From Halichondria panicea (taxonomy: Eukaryota; Porifera; Demospongiae; Suberitida; Halichondriidae): DNA of 64,000 nt. How positions within the stretch are numbered: the stretch's first letter is position 1; every line of letters begins with the position of its first letter. The DNA lies in NCBI RefSeq assembly GCF_963675165.1, contig NC_087388.1:3539047-3603046 (forward strand), in the 5' to 3' direction. Under the pieces are notes generated by a model. That model ran no database searches. It saw only the letters and a list, made by a program, of their open reading frames with translations, and was not told the origin of the DNA. Made by a program: the position numbers and the translations under genes. Shown here piece by piece: positions 2,181 through 62,964 of this stretch.

Positions 2181-2430
2181 TTAGCAGGACAGGGTGGCAA
2201 GCCACTTGCAGTTTTGCAGTGCTGCTCTGAAAGAGTGACGTGATGATGATGGTGATAGCTGCTGAATAGTCTGCAACTCTGTGGGGGACCTTGGTCTGCT
2301 CAGCCCACGTGGCTTTGCGCATGTGCACTGGCTGGAATGAAATTTGGAGGTGGAGCTAGCTAGTTGGAGGTGGAGTTTTGAGTTGATCACAACATATAAA
2401 GAGCTCTAGTGTTATCATATCAGCTAGCCT
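2181..2430 (-). repeat. Internal fragment of the hAT-like MITE family
   Basis: From AGCAGGACAGGGTGGCAAGCC onward, this stretch is an almost continuous reverse complement of about 46.0-46.26 kb, the interior of the complete MITE at 45873-46500. Shared landmarks are the GTGATGATG-type triplet run, CAGCCCACGTGGC and the duplicated TTGGAGGTGGAG. Neither terminus of the element is present. At its right edge (about 2428) it runs into an AGCCTCGATCCCAGGCC hairpin motif. Confidence 0.75.
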
Positions 2431-2495
2431 CGATCCCAGGCCGATCCGTCTCTAATTGAACGCTAGGTCTCCTCCTCGGCCTGGTATTGATTGTA
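2428..2495. repeat. Dispersed AGCCTCGAT/CCAGGCC hairpin, copy 1
   Basis: AGCCTCGATCCCAGGCC is followed about 35 bases later by CGGCCTGGTATTG, so CCAGGCCG and CGGCCTGG can pair. At least ten relatives occur in the window with the same stems but unrelated loops. This copy lacks the matching outer arm (ATCGAGGCT) on its right, so I cannot define its ends. Confidence 0.6.
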
Positions 2496-2499
2496 TCTG

Positions 2500-3590
2500 G
2501 GCGTGACCGGAAACTGGTAAGTATCAGCTATAATGTTCAGTTCATCACAGTTGGCTAAAAATACAGCGATATAATACACTAGAAATTAATACTGTGCACA
2601 ATAAATGCAGATGTTTAGAAGCGAAGATCCCAAACAAGAGCTTCCAGAAAGACTTAATAATTACTGCGTTGGATATGCCTGCTAAGCCTTCAGGTGGCAT
2701 AACAAAGATTGTGTGTTCACAGTGCATCAAGAGACAGTAGAAATCAAGAGACAGTAGAATCCTGACGTCACTGGCAGTGTTGGCAGTGTTGAAAGAGACG
2801 AGTTATATAAGATCGGACCCTTGGGAAGGACACGAGTGGCACTGGGGCATCCTCTTTCAATGAGTTCACACCCATCAGCTAGGAGGAGTACGACGGGGGT
2901 TGGAGGGGAATATTCCATTTTGCTCCTGTATACAAATTAGTATGAACTTAAATTCACCATTCCACTATACATTTTGTAACTCACAGTGATGGTCCACACA
3001 AAACTAGCCTCCTTGAAGGCCGGTGAAGGAGGCTAACACAACGCCAGTGCCGTAATTGATCCAGATACCAAGGATTGGGCTATAGGCTATAGTGCACAAT
3101 TTCCAATGATGAAAGGGCTCACCTTGACAATACATCCCAGGCCCAGCTACTTGTGGACACCCCTGAGCATAGAGATCGATGGCCAGAGTCTGAGGATAGA
3201 CTCTACCAAGTGTATCTGGCAATCAATGGTCTAATCAAGCGCTTGTATTAAATTGTGTAGTCAATCAAAAGTAGCCACTGATAGCAGAAACTTGAGAACC
3301 TAGGTCTGTTCTTTCACAAGAGTGATGCTCCTTCTTCCTTCGCACAAGACAGCTCCTCACACTCTAGCTAGCTAAGCCTATATCTATGACAAACTAAACT
3401 TGCAAAGAATAGACCTATGACACGGAGTTCTTTGGGTGATTTTACGGAGTAAGTATGCTTACATACACTATTAGTGTTTCTATTCGCTCCACCTTGCTCA
3501 GGTATTCGCTCTTTTTTAGCGAATACCTGAAGAACCACAGCAACCACAGCACATGCCCAGATACAATCCGAGGAGCTACATATCAGCTAG
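2500..3590. other. Non-coding stretch with short tandem duplications
   Basis: No recognisable coding sequence. Tandem duplications include AATCAAGAGACAGTAG at about 2725-2757 and GGCAGTGTT at about 2772-2790. The remainder shows no element termini that I can pair. Confidence 0.5.
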
Positions 3591-3591
3591 C

Positions 3592-3645
3592 TAGTAGCCT
3601 CGATTCCAGGCCACTCTCAATTGAGAAAGACGGCCTGGTATACAC
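3592..3645. repeat. Dispersed AGCCTCGAT/CCAGGCC hairpin, copy 2
   Basis: TAGCCTCGATTCCAGGCC, an 18-base loop, then CGGCCTGGTATACACTG. The right side continues into TGCGCATGCG. The same GGCCTGGTATAC...TGCGC tail recurs, inverted, near 4100 and 29590, suggesting one branch of the family is asymmetric. Confidence 0.65.
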
Positions 3646-4099
3646 TGTCTGCGCATGCGTCAGTTGCCCCAAGATTCTTGGGGATCGAGATATCTTAGTA
3701 AATTAGCCAGTATATTGTATATTTACAATGATGTCATTGCACAAATCACAGCAGTTTTAATCACAGCAGTTTTAATCAAATAACACAGCTACTTACAACA
3801 TTTACGACCTAGACTAGTGACTAGTTTTGTTGTGATGGCTTCTACTTCTGTTCTGCTCTTGCTCCAGTGTTGAAAAGTCAGATTTTGTCTTCTTTTGTAC
3901 TGTGGTAGAGTTTTTCTGTCAGTGCTTCCAGACACTTGTTTGATTGCCATCTCAGTAAGATCAGTGCTCCTCGTATGAGCCTAGAGTTGTGATGGCGATT
4001 TCTCTCTCTTGACACTAAATAAATTAATCAACCACGTGGGTGACCATGGTAAATTACAAAGAGTTTTACTAACAAATTTACTATTGAATCCACCCACGC

Positions 4100-4258
4100 G
4101 CAAACAGTGTTTACCAGGCCCTCTGGTGAGAGGGGCTGGGATCGAGGCTAGCTAGCTAGCTACATGTCGCTAGCTACATGTCGCTTAGCTAAGGAACTTG
4201 TGGAGCAGAGTCTGAGGGGTGCTGGAGCACCCTCTGCCCCCCTCTGGCTACGCCACTG
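4100..4258 (-). repeat. Hairpin motif joined to a hAT-like MITE end
   Basis: An inverted hairpin copy (TTACCAGGCC ... CTGGGATCGAGGCTAG) at 4110-4150 is followed by a duplicated TAGCTACATGTCGC. Bases 4180-4258 are then the reverse complement of the left end of the MITE at 45873, finishing exactly at its terminus CGTAGCCACTG-type sequence (..GGCTACGCCACTG). It is a terminal scrap with no partner end in the expected orientation. Confidence 0.65.
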
Positions 4259-42793: not shown

Positions 42794-43752
42794 GGTTTTA
42801 CTAAGTCTGGTTGAACATAATTACCACAATCAAAGCTGCATGACCACTGGACACATGGATGTGGGTTATCCCCATCTTGTATCCAATTAATTACTGCTTA
42901 GTTTTTGCAACTCATCAGTTGAGAAAGAGTATTAAGAAGCTGCCACTGCTTTTAGCTAAGTTCTGTTCCTTCTAGAGTGGACTACATGCAGGTATTGACA
43001 TTACTACATAAGTAGAATAGGTAAAACATGACTGTAAATGACTGTAGATCAATTTTAATATTTTGAGCAAAAGGGGGGTTCCTTTAATTTGCTCCCTTGG
43101 ATCTCCCCCTGGATCCGCCTGTCACCAGCCGAGGGTTTGCATTTTAGTGCTCTAGTTAATAATTCATTTTTGCATGTCATTTTTGCATGCAATCACACGG
43201 AAACTCAAATAGTGGGTATTGGATCGACCATGATTGTTGTTAAAAACGATCGATGCCAAAATTAATGGCTGCAAGTCAGCAGAGCCTTGCAGCTCTCTTC
43301 TCACTCTTTCAGCTACCAAAACTAGCGTTCTAGTGCAGAGTTAACGAGTAGCAACACTCGGTGAACAAGTTTTGCTACGGACTCAACTGAAAAGACATTC
43401 CCGTACTTAAAGCGACACTAAAAAATAATTATGAAGCCAGAGGTCGTTTCCTTTGGAGATTGAAAAATGATGTTGAAGTTCTGGTGTCGCATATTTAGAG
43501 GGTCGCATATAATTGGAGGTTATTCTTCTGTCCTCGATTATAGGCCGCTTAAATTACATTGTTTCTTGCGGCCTGGAATCGAGGCTGTGGTTTGACCTCT
43601 ATTTAGGACGCGACATAAAAAAATAATTGTGAACGCTATTTTTAGAGGTCAGAAAATTGGAAAAGATCGAGGGTGTCGCATATTTGGTTGGAGGGTCGTT
43701 TTAAATCGAATAAGTACGGTAAGCAAAACTAGGCATAACTCGAGAACGAAGC
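42794..43752. other. No gene; repeat scraps
   Basis: It contains a scrap related to the end of the long repeat family (CACCAGCCGAGGGTTTGCA at about 43122) next to CCCCTGGATCCGCC, a hAT-like MITE end. A symmetric hairpin copy is at 43533-43588 (CCTCGATTATAGGCCGC ... GCGGCCTGGAATCGAGGCTG). No coding sequence was recognised. Confidence 0.5.
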
Positions 43753-44316
43753 TTTATTACCCGAGGCGCGCGTGGGCGGCCACGGGTATAGTAGTATGTT
43801 GGTCTGTTTGTTTGTTTGTCACAGGTATATCTACTCACCTGGATGCCACATCACTGCGTTTACAGCATGGATAGCCTTCACACAACAATATCTTGATTTA
43901 AATAGTGGCAGATTTTGCTGTTAAAGCTTCTTTGTCGAGCAAAAGCTAAGAAGCTTGAATCAGCTTGTGACTAGGTCTGCTTACCTGGATGCTCTAGCAC
44001 TGCGTTTACAGCATGAGTAGCCTCCACACAACAAGTTAGTACTTTTGATAGTGACAGCTTTCGGTGTTAAAGCTCCTTTGTCTAATAAAAGCGAGCAAGG
44101 TTAGGCTGACTATTGGGTACTACCTGATTCTTCCAGGTACTACCTCAAAAAAGGAATTTCACACCTATTAAAACGGCAATAAAAAGCAATTGGCAATAGT
44201 GTGCAAAAACAAGAATAAAATGTGAGTGCAAAAAGCTATAAACTGCATATATACAGAAATAAAATGTGAGTGCAACAGCCTATAAATTTAAAGTGGGTAC
44301 TGCTTAGCTATATTTT

Positions 44317-45306
44317 CTAAAAGTTTTTCAAGTAAATCCACAGAAACTCAATAAGATATGTGGGGAAGAGGTTACTTGAAGTATTCATGACTCCTTGCTT
44401 TCTCATCATTCATTTAGTGCATGACCAATGTTCCTCTACACTCTGGGTGTGAGCCCCGGTCACTGGATCAACGAAGTTCTCTGAGTGGTTCACTGTTTGG
44501 TGGGTGTATCCAGAGATGCCAACGTCGAAGTAGGCACGCCATTCATCAGATATGACAGTTGTTCCAGGCCTGATATAAGTTTGGATTATTGGCATGAGAG
44601 TTTGCTTCGTCCTGTCAGGAACGACTACCATGAAAGCATTGGATGTTCCTCGCTCTATACCACCAAACACCCAGTGGCCATCCGTGACCCGCCCATGATT
44701 GTACTTACGTTTACCAAATTTGGACTCATCGATCTCCACGATTTTGCCAGGTCCACCTATCGTAATGGGAGAAGTAATGAAATAATTATACATGCAAACA
44801 GAATGTGACTTACCAATCGTGATAGGGTGGGCAAGGAAATACTCGGCGCATATATCCCGAAAGAAGTTGAAAACCAATCGATTGCAACTCTCTGTGAGAC
44901 TTTAGCTTCGATACTAGCCTCAGTCACTCTTTGCTGCCTAGACCAGAGATATACCAGCCTTAGGATGGTTTCGAAAGAAAGCTTTGTCTTGCTAAAAAAG
45001 CTTTTATCACGAATGCTTACTACTGCCTGGCACCCTTTTCGGTAGCCTCGATTCCAAGCCGCTGAGAAAGGCGAAGGGGCTGGAGTCGAGGCTACCTTTT
45101 CGGGGACATCTCCAGGAGAAAGAATTTTTTCTCTTTACAATTCGACAACTAGAAGAACATTTTCGACAGTCCATTGAAGAAGTAAGAAGATTCTTCCTCT
45201 GTAGCCAGTACATGATGTCTTCCTCATTCGTAAGAACTTCCTTGAGGAGATCAGCGTACGTCCAAGTTCTAGGAGTAGACAAAAGTGGTGGAGCCGCAGT
45301 AGCCAT
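44317..45306 (-). pseudogene. Merlin transposase (IS1595/ISXO2-like), interrupted
   Basis: It starts MATAAPPLLSTPRTWTYADL at 45306. An N-terminal zinc motif (CRKC ... WRCPRKGC) would bind DNA. The second exon begins at 44756 after a 57-nt intron (GTAAGT to GATAG) and reads GGPGKIVEIDESKFGKRKYN (first aspartate), GHWVFGGIERG, TTVISDEWRAYFD (second aspartate), TVNHSENFVDPVTGAHTQSV and EEHW (glutamate). Damage: a 52-bp hairpin element with a 9-bp duplication inserted between the last two zinc-ligand cysteines (45043-45103), a frame change near 44876 (IDWF / FNFFRDICAEYF), and a TGA after HWSCTK. Coding-like sequence MMRKQGVMNTSSNLFPTYL continues past the TGA to a stop at 44317. The protein length is otherwise typical for Merlin. 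Confidence 0.92.
45043..45094. mobile_element. 52-bp hairpin element inserted in Merlin transposase
   Basis: TAGCCTCGATTCCAAGCC at the left and GGCTGGAGTCGAGGCTA at the right form an imperfect inverted repeat around a loop of about 15 bases. CCTTTTCGG lies on both sides (45034-45042 and 45095-45103). Skipping the 52 bp plus one duplicate joins the transposase reading WRCPRK directly to GCQAVV, so the pre-insertion state is confirmed by the host gene. The inner motif is the same as in the dispersed hairpin copies listed elsewhere. Confidence 0.92.
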
Positions 45307-45872
45307 TGAAGATTGAAAAATTGAGTGAAAGAGTTGCAGTTTGATGAATGTGCATGGTGATTTCTTATATATGGTTCTGTTCCCTGATTTTGACAGGTAT
45401 TGACATGCAACTATGGACTATGACTATGAATCCAATTAACACCTTTCAGCTGAAGCGATAAGTGTGAAATTCCTTTTTGAGGTAGTACCTGGAAGAATCA
45501 GGTAGTACCCATTAGTCAGCCTAACCGCGAGCAAAATGTAGCTTGAACAGAACTTGCACATGCGTTACTTATAACTGAAGTGATCCTGTACCAAGAAAAC
45601 GATGGAACAGGGTCACTAAAGTAGAAAGCTGTATATACCAGGAACAACTTGAATTATAGCTCCTGCTGCTGACTGGGATCCTACTCCATGCAGAACCTGG
45701 AGCCATACTTCTCTGAGACTCCAGGCTTCTATACTGTGATCCTAATCCATAGTGCATATATCTATAGTACCACTACCTGTTCTCAAATGTTTCAGCATGC
45801 CTCCAGCCTGGTTTAGTTTTATTGCTCCTGAGTTGCTGTGCAAGTCATACATGATAACAACATCACTATATG

Positions 45873-46799: not shown

Positions 46800-47630
46800 T
46801 AGACTGGAGGACAAAATTCATGTCTAAGAATTGTACATCATCGACCTTGTTCATTTGATGTTTGATGTCGATGTCGATGATCGAAGTCGTGATAATTGAT
46901 GTGGTAATGGTCGATGCGTTGTAATAATGAAAGTGGATGTGATGATTGATGTGGTATTGGTCGATGCGCTGGTGTGATGATTGGAACCAAGTGATGAGAT
47001 ACACATCGGATACTGATAACAGATGTTGTTGTTGTAAGCTCGAACTGGCATTCTGAGAAGAGATAGACCTACCAATAGATGGGCGTGGCCCGCCTCCAAA
47101 AGGGCTCAGCGCCTATAATAATTATATCTAACATGTATCGTGGTACTAAATATGACATCATAATATTAGCTGCGCCTCTAACCGCAGAGCTCAGCTTGCT
47201 GCAGAGAAGGGGAGGCTGAGGAGCAAGGAAGCATTACGTAAAGGGATATACATTATACAACTGATTGGTGCTGCATGATTTTTTGCAACAGAACGAATGC
47301 ATAGCGCATGCTAGATAGGACTGAACTCGTCTCCCCACACCCATCTATTGCTTTCCTTGTATCTTTTGTTGGTCTATCTCTAGTTCGAGCTAGCTTACAA
47401 CAACAACACATCTGTTATCAGTATCCGATGTAGCCTCGAATCCAGGCCAATTAAAATACGTAATCGGCATGGTCTCGAGGCTATATCCGATCGATCATCA
47501 CCAATTACATATCGACCATTACCACATCAATTATCACGACTTCGATCATCGACATTGACATCAAACATCAAATGAACAAGGTCGATGATGCACAATTCTT
47601 AGACATGAATTTTGTCCTCTATGGCGCTCC
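46800..47630. repeat. Inverted pair of about 280-bp arms
   Basis: Left arm 46800-47085 and right arm about 47370-47630 are reverse complements (shared words include GACATGAATTTTGTCCTC at the outer edge and CATCTGTTATCAGTATCCGA near the inner edge). They are separated by about 280 bp of unrelated sequence. Arms contain repeated TCGATG(A/T) and ACCACATCAAT(T/C)ATCAC words. The right arm carries the hairpin insertion at 47431-47483. Confidence 0.8.
47431..47483. mobile_element. 53-bp hairpin element, second copy with 9-bp duplication
   Basis: TAGCCTCGAATCCAGGCC ... ATGGTCTCGAGGCTA, flanked by TATCCGATG (47422-47430) and TATCCGATC (47484-47492), a 9-bp duplication with one mismatch. The size and duplication length match the copy in the Merlin gene, although the loops are unrelated. 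Confidence 0.75.
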
Positions 47631-47634
47631 ATAT

Positions 47635-48184
47635 CATGTGAGATAGCTAACCAAGCCAAGCTTTGATTCCAGGCCATGGAGAAGGAGTATGTACTAATTG
47701 TGCATGTTCTGAGTTTCAAGGGCGGCCTAACTGTAGCCTTGAATCCATTTTAATCGGCCTGGATTCGTATGGAATGCCGTTTGCGACAAAATTCAGGCAG
47801 AATCTGATAGGCGTGTGCATCCAATATAAAATCGATTTTTGAAGATCGATTTTTAATAATCGATTTTTTACAGTTGATTTTCGATTTACACGTGAACGAT
47901 CTTTGACAATCACTCTGATAATCGATTTTTGACAATCGATTATTGAAATTCGATTTTCGATTTACACGTGAACGATCTTTGACAATCGATCTGATAATCG
48001 ATTTTTGATAATCGATTACTGAAATTCGATTTTTGATAATCGATTTTTGAAAATCGATAAATCGCGATACTTGCCAGGCCGATTAAAATGGCTACAGTTA
48101 GGCTGCCCTTGAAACTCAGAACATGCACAAACTCCTTTCCGCGGCCTGGAATCAAAGCTTGGCTTGGTTAGCTATCTCACATGA
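47635..48184. repeat. Palindrome with about 115-bp arms around an ATCGAT-rich centre
   Basis: Left arm 47635-47762 (CATGTGAGATAGCTAACCAA ...) is the inverse of right arm 48074-48184 (... TTGGTTAGCTATCTCACATG). Each arm includes a decayed hairpin motif (TTTGATTCCAGGCC). The centre is an array of ATCGATTTTT words. Confidence 0.85.
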
Positions 48185-50230: not shown

Positions 50231-51341
50231 GTGTATGTCCATGTGATCATTCATAATTATCATGTGACTTCCATTAGTACTCATACATGTAATTGGAGTA
50301 TATTTAGAAGTTCAGAAGTTGATCCGGCCAGAAGACATGTCTGGATACACATTGTGAGTTTGTATATAATTATAGAGAACTGTTACTGGTATTTCTCCAC
50401 AAAATTTTGTAGTATCCACTCTCTAACTACGTCTGTGTTTGGCGACTTGATTAATGGTCCATGAATATGAGTGAAAGATTTATGGTCACGTCCTGGAGTT
50501 TTGCTGAATACTTTCATTTGTGATAACTGTTCCACTACTTTCAAGAAGTCTTTGTCATAAAAAATTATGGTGTTTTAGCATGGACACCAAATGCTTTTAT
50601 TACACCATTATCCCTGTCGAAAGTATCAAGGGTAGCCTCAAGGGTTCCCACCATTTTGCCACATGGCCTTATTGGCTCCTAAACCCTCGATAGACGTTTT
50701 CACTAGTTTATTCATGTGCTCCATATGGAGATCACAGCTTATGTTGTGACCAGGAAGTCCACGTGTATTGACAAATCTCGACCATTTAACACCCTCTGCC
50801 AGTCGGGGTGGCAGGACAATGTGGTATTGTATCAGAAGGTGAAATGCTTCCATTGCATAATTCTTTCTACTTGAAGCTTTAAATACCAGAAGAAAGTATT
50901 TCCATAAACGAAGGCAACGATCACCATCCCCATCCCCCTCTTTTATAGCATCTTTGAATACTTTATCTGTACTCTTACTTGGTTTCTTGTGTGCATTTGT
51001 GAATATCAATGTGCTGAGAAGCAATGTTTACAGCAATAGACATCAGTACCTCCACATGAGGGAACTGTTTGGCAGTACATCTTCTGATGGGACGTCATCA
51101 ATTGTATTCATTTTCAGATGTTGCATAACTGCATACGTGATATACGCTTCTACTACTAATTCGAAAAAGTCTTCATGAGCATTTAAATCTTTTTTGCACT
51201 TTTTGGACACATTTCGACGATTAAGTTGGTTTCGAAGGTGAAATAGAGTCCCTCTTTCCATTGCAGATGATGTTTTATATAATCTTTTCCAAATCACCTA
51301 AGCAAGTATACACATGTATGAGTGTCAGTCATACCATTATA

Positions 51342-59905: not shown

Positions 59906-60618
59906 ATGATCTCCTGTGGTTGGTACGTACATACACATGAATATGCGTAGGCGGTATCATTGATCATAGTGACGTTCTGCATTCTTGTGGCAGCGTGAAA
60001 TTCCTCACGCCCTGGGACAACTCTCAACACGGCAGCTTGCCAGTCCCTTTCTCCCGAGAGAAGGGGAGTGGTTTCCAGTCTATAGTCAAGGCTGTGGCTC
60101 AGAAGTAGAGGATTACAAGTAGACTGGACGTGGTGTTGTTGACAATAACAGACTAGTTCAGAGCTACAGTACAGGTAGCTAGCCTCGAATCCAGGCAGAT
60201 TAAAATACGGCCTGGTACCTATTGCATGTGTAATTAATTATAGGCGTGGCCGTCCACACCCATGTACTATCTACTATTATATGAAGCTTTTTATAGCCTA
60301 GCTAGCTAGCTAGCTGTGGCCTTCTCTATGGTGTTGTGTTGAGAAGGCTTGCACACGAAGCCAGAAGAGGCTCTCATCTACCTCTATGATGGTTGGATGA
60401 TCGTGATGTTTTGAACTGGGTTTCTGACAGACTATGGCAAGTCTTTGACTTTGTGCTTCCAACTGCAACCATAGGACCATCGTAGAGGTAGATGTGAGCC
60501 TCTTCTGGTTTCATAATAGTGTGCAAACCTTCTCGACAACACAATAGAGAATATAAGCCACAGCTTCACAGGAGAGAGAGTTTAAAGGGTTTCTGACAGA
60601 CTAGACTATGGCTAGCGA
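59906..60618. other. Non-coding; hairpin copy and a repeated block
   Basis: A hairpin motif copy is at 60181-60222 (TAGCCTCGAATCCAGGCAG ... CGGCCTGGTACC). The block CTATGGCAAGTCTTTGACTT, continuing for about 120 bp, is at 60432-60560 and again, same orientation, at 61875-61996. Parts of this block also occur inverted at 60345-60400 (GAAGAGGCTC ... versus GAGCCTCTTC). Confidence 0.6.
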
Positions 60619-61869
60619 TGTCAGACCGATTTTCATTTTTGCTATTTCTAACTCCTATGTATTATTATCTCTTTTGAACACTCTAGGCAAACCAGAAAAA
60701 CTTTACTGCACTGGATTTGGTCAAGCGAATGCAGAGATACAGCGTTTTGAAGAACACTAGTCAGGGAAAAATTCGTACAAAAATTTACCGCATTTTAATG
60801 TACTTGGGCGGGACTTATGAAATTTGTTGTTAATACCGGAAATGATCTTAAAGTTAGCATATCTGCTGAACCGCTTGGTCTATTCTCTTTTAAAAAAGTA
60901 TGAAATGGACACTCAGGACTCAGGAGTTGACATTGTAACCATTTGATATCTATTATGAAGTTTATAATGTTTCTGTAATGTATATGTTTATGATGTCCCT
61001 ATAATAGTATGATGTCTCCTGCTTCAGAGAGTTCTTTTGGATTTAAAGTAACCATGCTATCTTTTCAGTATATTGTATCATGTTTCAGAACTCTCATCAA
61101 TGTCCACCTTACGCTTGTATCTGTTTCTTGATCTTTATAAGCAACTTTTCTGTCAATTTCATTTGGTCTAAATAATTCGTTTTTAGTGTGATGTAGATTT
61201 AAGGCCATACAACTATAAATCTATGATACAACTCTGTTGACAGCTTTTAATTAATACAGTAGATTACTCTTGTCTTTTTTGTGTGCAAATTGAATCAGTT
61301 CTTGCAATTTAATAGTTTTGGTAGATTACAGTGTTGTCCCTGGAATTCTCTCCAATCTTTCTTGTTTCTTTTCAACAGAGGCTTTCAGATTACTTCAATA
61401 ATTACTTTCAGTAACTTCTAAGAACTTCTAAGAAATAAATACAGCTATTGGTACACTTGGCTTGATTTTACTGCATTTCTATTCTCAGCTCCACCCATCT
61501 ATCCATGCAATATGTGATTCCGCAAGAAATAAAAGCTTATTGTAGCAACTTTTTGCATAATCTGGAGAGAGTTAGAGATAAAAGACATGCTCACTTGTGT
61601 TTTTGTTTATTTTCATGTTTGGTTGCCAAAATGATGATCACCTTTGAGAAAAAATCACACGCAAAACAAGCATCAAATGCTAAAATCATAAAAAACTGTT
61701 ATAAAAATCAAATTCTACGCTATTTTTTACCCCTGGGAAGAGCTGTTGTTTGCTAGACTCTTCCAGGGCTTGCGGAAAGCCCTTCTTGTTCACTCACTTT
61801 CTGGTCCCGTTTTTTACCATTGAATTACTGTACGAAAATACGCCCACGCACTACTTCCGGTCTGACATC
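60619..61869. mobile_element. Candidate 1.25-kb element with 12-bp TIR
   Basis: GATGTCAGACCG at 60619 is matched by CGGTCTGACATC ending at 61869. It separates the two copies of the CTATGGCAAGTC repeat. No clean target duplication was found. The plus frame 61505-61756 is open but unrecognised. The boundaries are therefore provisional. Confidence 0.45.
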
Positions 61870-61996
61870 TCTACTATGGCAAGTCTTTGACTTTGTGCTT
61901 CCAACTGCAACCATAGGACCATGGTAGAGAGCCTCTTCTGGCTTTAGACAAGTGTGTAAGCCTTCTTGACAACACAATGGAGGGCATAAAGCCACA

Positions 61997-62964
61997 GGAG
62001 ACAAGTATTTGTTAAAAATAATACGGAAAGAAACTAGTAAACAAACTAGTTTACGGTATAATTTTACAAAGGTTTACTAACGTGAACGAATTCCCCAGAT
62101 TCTGGGGAACTCAGTTTGCGCATGTGCACTATCACCCATGCAATAGAGACAAAATACGGCCTGGTCTCGAGGCTAGTAGCTAGCTAGCTACATGTACAAA
62201 CCTCGCAGCTGCATTTATAGTGGTGGGCGGGTCTGGGGCGCAGTCAATAACTATAACTTATTTTGCAAATCCACAAAATTAATAGCAAGCCAAGAAAACA
62301 TGACTAGAAGCCTATAGAAACTCTTACTTGCATGCACTTCATTGATCTTGAGCAGCACAAGAATACCGTATACCTCGCTTGCGCATATGCGCATGCACAC
62401 CGAGGCTTGTTGCATTTTGAGTGGGCAGATCAAAGGAAACACTGACAGTCTGTGCCAATATGGCACAGGTCAACAGTGAACTGTGCCACTATCTAGATAC
62501 TGGCATAGTATGGCTGAAGTTAGTAAAGCCACCTTCCACCCAGTAACCTGAAACGTCCCTTTATAGTATTCAGTGGTAGGCAGAAAACGTTCTTCATGTG
62601 TCTAGTGCATTCCACAGCCGACCACAAGTAGTTGCAAAGTAGTTGTCCTATAAAAGGAGTGATGTGTACCGGAAAGGAATGCAACAAGGAATGCCAGTTG
62701 TGCTCAGTAATGCCTTTGCCCTCGAGGCCTGCGCCTAAGTCACTACTCACAACTACCGTATATCTTCTAATTTATCGGACAGCAAAAAATAATATTATTT
62801 TGGAACAGATTTTTATACAGCATGCGAAGTGTCCCGAATAATTAGAACAAGCAAGCAGCTGCATGCGAGCTAGCTAAGTTTAATAGACCAGTGCATGTGC
62901 GACTGAATAGTTGCACTAGCTATCTAAAACTAGCTACTCAAAGCTATCTAACTGCAGCACTCTA
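61997..62964. other. Non-coding
   Basis: No gene was recognised. A partial hairpin motif (TACGGCCTGGTCTCGAGGCTAG, split here as TACGGCCTGG and TCTCGAGGCTAG) is at 62156-62177. TAGCTAGC tracts flank it. Confidence 0.45.

Follow-up and report, generated by a model that had tools for sequence, protein, structure and literature searches.

AcademH is a lineage of Academ DNA transposons, attributed to Kojima (2020) in PMC10045372, which gives target site duplications (TSDs) of 9 or 10 bp and an encoded helicase as features of the lineage. MITEs and internal-deletion derivatives, such as the PIF/Harbinger-like elements in Medicago, keep both ends and the target duplication and lose the interior, and abortive gap repair has been proposed earlier for such deletion derivatives of DNA transposons, with the Ac/Ds model cited alongside (PMC2213677). 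The Merlin superfamily produces duplications of 8 or 9 bp (PMC8101967). Our literature search found no published account of hairpins such as those described below, and the available portions of two reviews on MITEs give no lower size limit for these elements.

The hairpins analysed here were followed from the window, a stretch of 64,000 nucleotides of Halichondria panicea DNA, into the remainder of the genome. They resemble AcademH in their 9-bp (sometimes 10-bp) duplications, in their terminal inverted repeats (TIRs) and in the helicase of a full-length sister element; possible differences are that the ends of the present system have built-in stem-loops and that more than 900 hairpins, which we read as fused ends, are found in one genome. 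As in the deletion derivatives of PIF/Harbinger-like elements, both ends and the target duplication are kept and the interior is lost, whereas here the deletion is near total, its endpoints appear to be determined by the hairpins in the ends, with junctions that vary by insertion. Duplications of 8 or 9 bp are a feature in common with Merlin; the termini differ, however, being 5'-GG in Merlin and 5'-TA in the hairpins, and Merlin is in our case the host element.

A hairpin within a Merlin gene

The 52-bp hairpin (TAGCCTCGATTCCAAGCCGCTGAGAAAGGCGAAGGGGCTGGAGTCGAGGCTA; Table 1) folds as single-stranded DNA to -16.9 kcal/mol on the plus strand, where 0 of 200 shuffles were equal or better, and to -13.5 kcal/mol on the minus strand, where 1 of 200 was. 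The Merlin element around it has 5'-GG termini, and its downstream ORF matches PF12762 (DDE_Tnp_IS1595) in a Pfam search at E 1e-17. A Merlin paralog on contig C5 supplies the empty site, as it has one CCTTTTCGG and reads WRCPRKGCQAVV across the insertion point, and the window sequences to the left and right of the hairpin align to it with a 9-bp overlap between them. Identity to this paralog is 98.97% over 390 bp on one side of the hairpin; on the other side, the alignment of 966 columns contains 6 mismatches and 78 gap positions, and the paralog carries a stop at another place. The initial annotation had taken the segment for an insertion that duplicated 9 bp of its target, and this is confirmed by the duplicate on both sides together with the empty paralogous site; its proposed check of other Merlin copies, for the case that the segment belonged to Merlin itself, led to a paralog that is precisely without it. 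The insertion is most simply taken to be younger than the split of the two Merlin copies.

Table 1 Coordinates in the window of the hairpin, its host and its relatives
Feature	Position	Strand	Remarks
52-bp hairpin	45043..45094	.	A-type left end 1-31 joined to right end 1-21; 1 mismatch of 52
Left copy of 9-bp target duplication CCTTTTCGG	45034..45042	.	Single copy at C5 empty site
Right copy of 9-bp target duplication CCTTTTCGG	45095..45103	.	
Host Merlin element	44099..45526	-	TIR GGTTAGGCTGAC..., 8-bp TSD GCGAGCAA at 44091-44098 and 45527-45534; gene broken by hairpin
Second hairpin, 53 bp	47431..47483	.	Flanks TATCCGATG/TATCCGATC, 8/9 matching
Decayed hairpin, 59 bp	43529..43587	.	No target duplication found
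Long relative, 556 bp	3595..4150	.	Like ends, internal end hairpins, TSD GCTAGCTAG
Probable long relative, 1154 bp	2425..3578	.	TSD CATATCAGC exact; right end diverged (TAGCTCCTCGG)
Long relative, ~2 kb, B-type ends	60180..62175	.	Flanks not matching; helicase-like fragments by eye
Decayed DUF6589 relic (candidate transposase)	50437..51294	-	34% identity to L142 exon, 6 stops

The decayed DUF6589 gene, 5 kb from the 52-bp hairpin, is an ancient relative of the element described below as the likely source. A further likely MITE at 47658-48160 has the inverted ends TAACCAAGCCAAGCTTTGATTCCAGGCC, in which GATTCCAGGCC is common to it and the hairpin family.

Short copies across the genome and the ends of long elements

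A search for other short copies, as proposed with the initial annotation, covered 131 Mb of genome in 39 contigs. The pattern TAGCCTCGA-N20..50-TCGAGGCTA, which finds exact ends in 38-68 bp, gave 927 matches and its reversed control 0; the same ends with a gap of 51-80 (69-98 bp) gave 152 matches, some of them composites enclosing a shorter hairpin, and the control again 0. The figures 927 and 152 count places and not insertions, as several insertions have been multiplied inside host repeats. Merging copies with identical flanks reduced 65 examined short copies to 48 independent insertions, a non-random sample made up of 15 loci and 20 short pieces out of the part of contig C1 that was listed first, hits to the 52 bp and further listed places. 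Exact 9-bp duplications flank 31 of these insertions and 9-bp duplications with 1-2 mismatches another nine, which makes 40 of 48; three have duplications of 10 bp (with at most 1 mismatch) and five have none. A first set of 35 pairs, some of them imperfect or due to chance, contained 14 exact 9-bp duplications, eight with 1-2 differences and 13 pairs with none; other flank lengths from 5 to 12 yielded one exact case, of 8 bp, and swapped flanks matched exactly in 1 of 1190 comparisons. Ten of the 35 pairs were excluded from the count of 48 because their end 9-mers were imperfect, they were shorter than 36 or their arms paired poorly. TAGCC/GGCTA ends with exact 9-bp flanks delimit 33 elements (19 to 3509 bp, copies of one insertion and composites included) in 248 kb of retrieved sequence, and ten other end motifs gave 0 each. 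No strong motif was found in the 21 TSD sequences compared.

A second comparison of filled and empty sites comes from a 56-bp hairpin with the TSD GCTAGAGTC, which lies in a host repeat. Among 40 of 203 candidates scored, six copies of this repeat are filled and 14 are empty, the flanks of the empty copies joining in exactly 97 bp without the hairpin and one duplicate; six further copies deviate by a few bases. Numerous copies of a 50-bp hairpin lie on C1 at ~1.28-2.4 Mb, with flanks that are alike (~CTCGCGCTC) in the six copies read; this is one insertion multiplied in a larger repeat. Elsewhere (L049:231-332; L013/L015/L023 near 1276-1790), two adjoining hairpins or MITEs come with three identical copies of their 9-bp duplication (GCAACTTCC; TTCTAGAGT), which reflects either repeated insertion at the identical 9 bp or a product of repair. 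Still smaller forms with direct flanks (L013:1714; L016:1325; L044:2884) measure 19 bp (TAGCCTGGGATCGAGGCTA, with CATTGGAAC twice), 28 bp (8-bp flanks) and 36 bp (9-bp flanks).

Long elements of 0.6-5.6 kb have like ends, and 13 of 14 pairs are flanked by exact 9-bp duplications, the remaining one matching at 8 of 9 positions. These 14 are the pairs with both ends readable, namely 11 of A-type, two of other end types and one of the full-length sister type, two of them being copies of one insertion; not counted among them are two pairs of the window, 60180/62175, whose flanks do not match, and 2425/3578, which has exact flanks and a right end that has diverged. Each end of the long elements holds a stem-loop consisting of an outer arm TAGCCTCGATTCCAGGCC, a loop and an inner arm GGCCTGGTA, and a pattern for such ends gave 660 matches in the genome. 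When the A-type ends of 1-4 kb elements are joined, 31 bases from the left and 21 from the right, the result differs from the 52-bp hairpin at a single position, where the hairpin has CCAA for CCAG. Of 12 regions retrieved where long A elements were predicted to have their left ends, seven show the CCAA form and five show no left end, and exact long left ends with CCAA number 32 genome-wide. Long copies also contain the variants seen in the hairpins, both in the arm (CCAA/CCAG) and in the loop (AAAGGC/AAAGAC). Twenty-five hairpins compared with joined long-element ends had a mean of 4.7 mismatches, against 17.3 for shuffled interiors, and the four of them that match the listed ends poorly (10-14 mismatches) belong to end types missing from the end list.

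The A-type hairpins are cut at a narrow range of positions. A filter for this type gave 29 rows, from which two of other end types (L009 and L036) were removed by eye; in the remaining 27 independent insertions, the left part comprises 27-32 bases, with the inner arm starting at ~30, and the right part 16-30, with the inner arm starting at ~29, so that the deletion breakpoints fall in the loops of the end stem-loops or within ~3 bases of them. The largest A-type hairpin has 60 bp. Other end types give hairpins of 47 bp, which consist of outer arm, one loop and outer arm, and of 58 bp, in which both loops are complete; a further end type, in which the loop is longer and of which a long end was also seen, is represented by hairpins of 72-98 bp. 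Like MITEs, the hairpins are short and noncoding, have terminal inverted repeats and a target duplication, and reach a high copy number. The usual MITE family is uniform in size. The 27 A-type insertions do not have the uniformity of a family spread from a short master copy, as they comprise 25 sequences with 22 interior strings, which differ chiefly at the junction. Identical hairpins at independent sites amount to two pairs (L102/L103 and L095/L097), and a 60-bp junction was found again at three sites.

Candidate enzyme and full-length sister element

Five long A copies were read through (L076, L078, L079, L140 and L141), and the long copies read comprised one of 3.5 kb and others of 1.1-3.9 kb; no full-length A-type element was found among them, and the five held only a frameshifted helicase-like fragment. 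This fragment alone gave no Pfam hit and two PDB hits at chance level (E 0.55 and 0.84), and with its frames joined by X it matched PF00270 at 3.7e-4, which is below the cut-off. Helicase-like exon fragments accompany long A elements, with 397 first-look candidates, of which 150 were scored. In the 3.5-kb A-type element, a nested ORF of 656 aa (L076:1348-3318) resembles a reverse transcriptase (PF00078 at 3.6e-5, below cut-off).

L142 was reached through a search for RecQ-like helicases. This element of 5575 bp has the TSD ACTCTACTG, and its 69-bp TIRs are 100% identical and start with TAGCCTCGA. It contains PF00270 (5e-14), PF00271 (1.4e-11) and PF20231 (DUF6589; 2.7e-31), with the helicase ORF, of 396 aa, and the DUF6589 exons lying on opposite strands. 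Five more places with the L142 TIRs span 5349 bp, which brings the full-length copies to six (5.3-5.6 kb), and all six have the 396-aa helicase ORF and an identical DUF6589 exon of 312 aa. Among 23 short elements of the L142 type, compared by size alone, 11 measure exactly 237 bp and the others 219-239 bp; the 237-bp type may be a real mobile MITE, in which case the machinery would be able to move small elements.

DUF6589, which we take to be the Academ transposase, has 632 homologs in our search, and the name was not found in the literature search. The model of the protein is poor (pLDDT 64), and among its 204 PDB matches at E<=10 there was none at E<=0.001, so that no solved fold was matched. 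We infer that DUF6589 is the transposase of the candidate source. The duplications agree with those given for AcademH, with 9 bp (0-2 mismatches) in 40 of 48 hairpins and 10 bp in three, and exact 9 bp in 13 of 14 long pairs; the helicase agrees for the L142 type, in which PF00270 and PF00271 pass the cut-off, and the A type has the broken fragment below cut-off. The L142-like sister element, with a RecQ-like helicase and DUF6589 between TAGCCTCGA ends, is a better candidate for the mover than Merlin or Mutator enzymes. The best candidate assignment for the system is AcademH-type, which is not the same as proven AcademH, and an enzyme of this type would have moved the A-type elements.

Several other elements were encountered in the course of the searches. 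L144:1474-7459 is a second element with DUF6589 and a helicase-like ORF, whose 76-bp perfect inverted ends have a different sequence (~TAGACTCGCAAGCC) and which shows an apparent 8-bp duplication. Helicase exons are present at L143, where no such end pair was found in 8.5 kb. A MULE domain on C3, 3.1 kb from a TAGCC end, was considered as the source and rejected, as it belongs to a separate element with other inverted repeats. At L064:508-629 and 2391-2512 (C3 near 3,000,000), 122-bp inverted arms of short repeats, rich in GATCAACT, enclose a MULE gene with an exon that is FLYWCH-like by eye, and form a separate Mutator-type element.

Origin of the hairpins

We propose that the 52-bp hairpin consists of the A-type left and right ends, joined when a longer copy that had entered the Merlin gene lost its interior, and that it did not jump as a 52-bp unit; we assign this reading a probability of about 0.6. 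Most of the hairpins probably formed separately in this way. The long element would insert and create the 9-bp duplication; after its excision the break would be refilled from the other copy by abortive gap repair, the route we judge most likely; repair synthesis from either side would be halted by the end hairpins, and joining of both short ends would leave the outer arms and remnants of the loops. Such synthesis would stop at the loops because stem-loops sit in the element ends, and abortive gap repair would leave the ends and the duplication in place with one junction per insertion. The 25 sequences in 27 A-type insertions fit separate formation better than the spread of a short master copy, whereas the two identical pairs at different sites allow that a minority of short forms moved by themselves. 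The initial annotation is hence upheld in that the hairpin is a member of a mobile family, and its view of the 52-bp unit as an element that jumps by itself is weakened by the same diversity of sequences. We infer that the collapse came after insertion. Against this, none of the sites seen was long in some copies and short in others, and the one host series tested had only short (six) or empty copies among the 40 of 203 scored.

It is unlikely that the hairpins of 40-60 bp are mobile as such, that is, minimal MITEs moved in trans by a DUF6589/RecQ-like enzyme and spreading in their short form. Such movement would account for the clean 9-bp duplications with empty sites, the 927 places and the two fully identical pairs at different sites, but it leaves the 25 different sequences in 27 A-type insertions, whose arms are nearly undecayed, and the restriction of the breakpoints to loops or loop edges to be explained. 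Moreover, several of the multi-copy hairpins are single insertions carried by a host repeat (those flanked by ~CTCGCGCTC or GCTAGAGTC), and, given the stiffness of DNA, a 52-bp duplex has about 20 bp for looping between two bound ends. Quite improbable, in our estimation, is that the short forms arise before or during integration, with an excised element that collapses at the hairpins of its ends and then inserts, as a short product, into a site that was never long. One junction per insertion and the lack of long copies in the single host series tested would be expected from this course of events; however, the collapsed product must still be bound and integrated at both ends, no precedent for the collapse of an excised transposon before integration is known to us, and the traces are the same as those of collapse after insertion, so that the present data do not separate the two.

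Two other explanations fare far worse. The minus strand could be read as an introner, a 61-nt intron GTAGCC...CCGAAAAG whose removal restores the Merlin frame, and its boundary AAG|GTAGCC ... GAAAAG|G is indeed an exact GT-AG; the AG, however, lies in the target duplication, which varies among the 21 sites compared, and most insertions would be unable to use it, which makes this reading very improbable. That the segment is part of Merlin, or was moved by Merlin- or Mutator-type enzymes as the initial annotation had suspected, is hardly tenable. Duplications of 9 bp can be produced by Mutator elements and lie within the range of Merlin, and 31 matches to MULE domains exist in the genome; yet the precise absence of the segment from the paralogous Merlin refutes its being part of that element, the Merlin termini 5'-GG differ from the 5'-TA of the present copies (TAGCC.../...GGCTA), and the MULE domain was bracketed by ends of the hairpin family within 1.5 kb in 0 of the 30 loci fetched.

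Returning to internal deletion of longer copies, we tentatively extend it, as a possibility that falls short of even odds, to a self-collapsing transposon, whose own end stem-loops would set the point at which repair stops. Its copies would shrink to hairpin scars of 40-98 bp, with a size given by the loop length of the subfamily, and more than 900 of these scars would lie in this one genome, each distinct scar recording one insertion and a subsequent loss; the RecQ-like helicase that the element itself encodes may guide these events. A perfect target duplication around a hairpin need not mean that the hairpin itself is mobile. The genome of H. panicea offers a large natural series of transposon derivatives that are close to minimal in size and have kept their target duplications intact, beside six closely similar full-length relatives, and this series makes testable the minimum size of a movable TIR transposon as well as the birth of MITE-like deletion derivatives. 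If the end hairpins fix the breakpoints, deletion derivatives would be a result of the architecture of the ends and not of chance.
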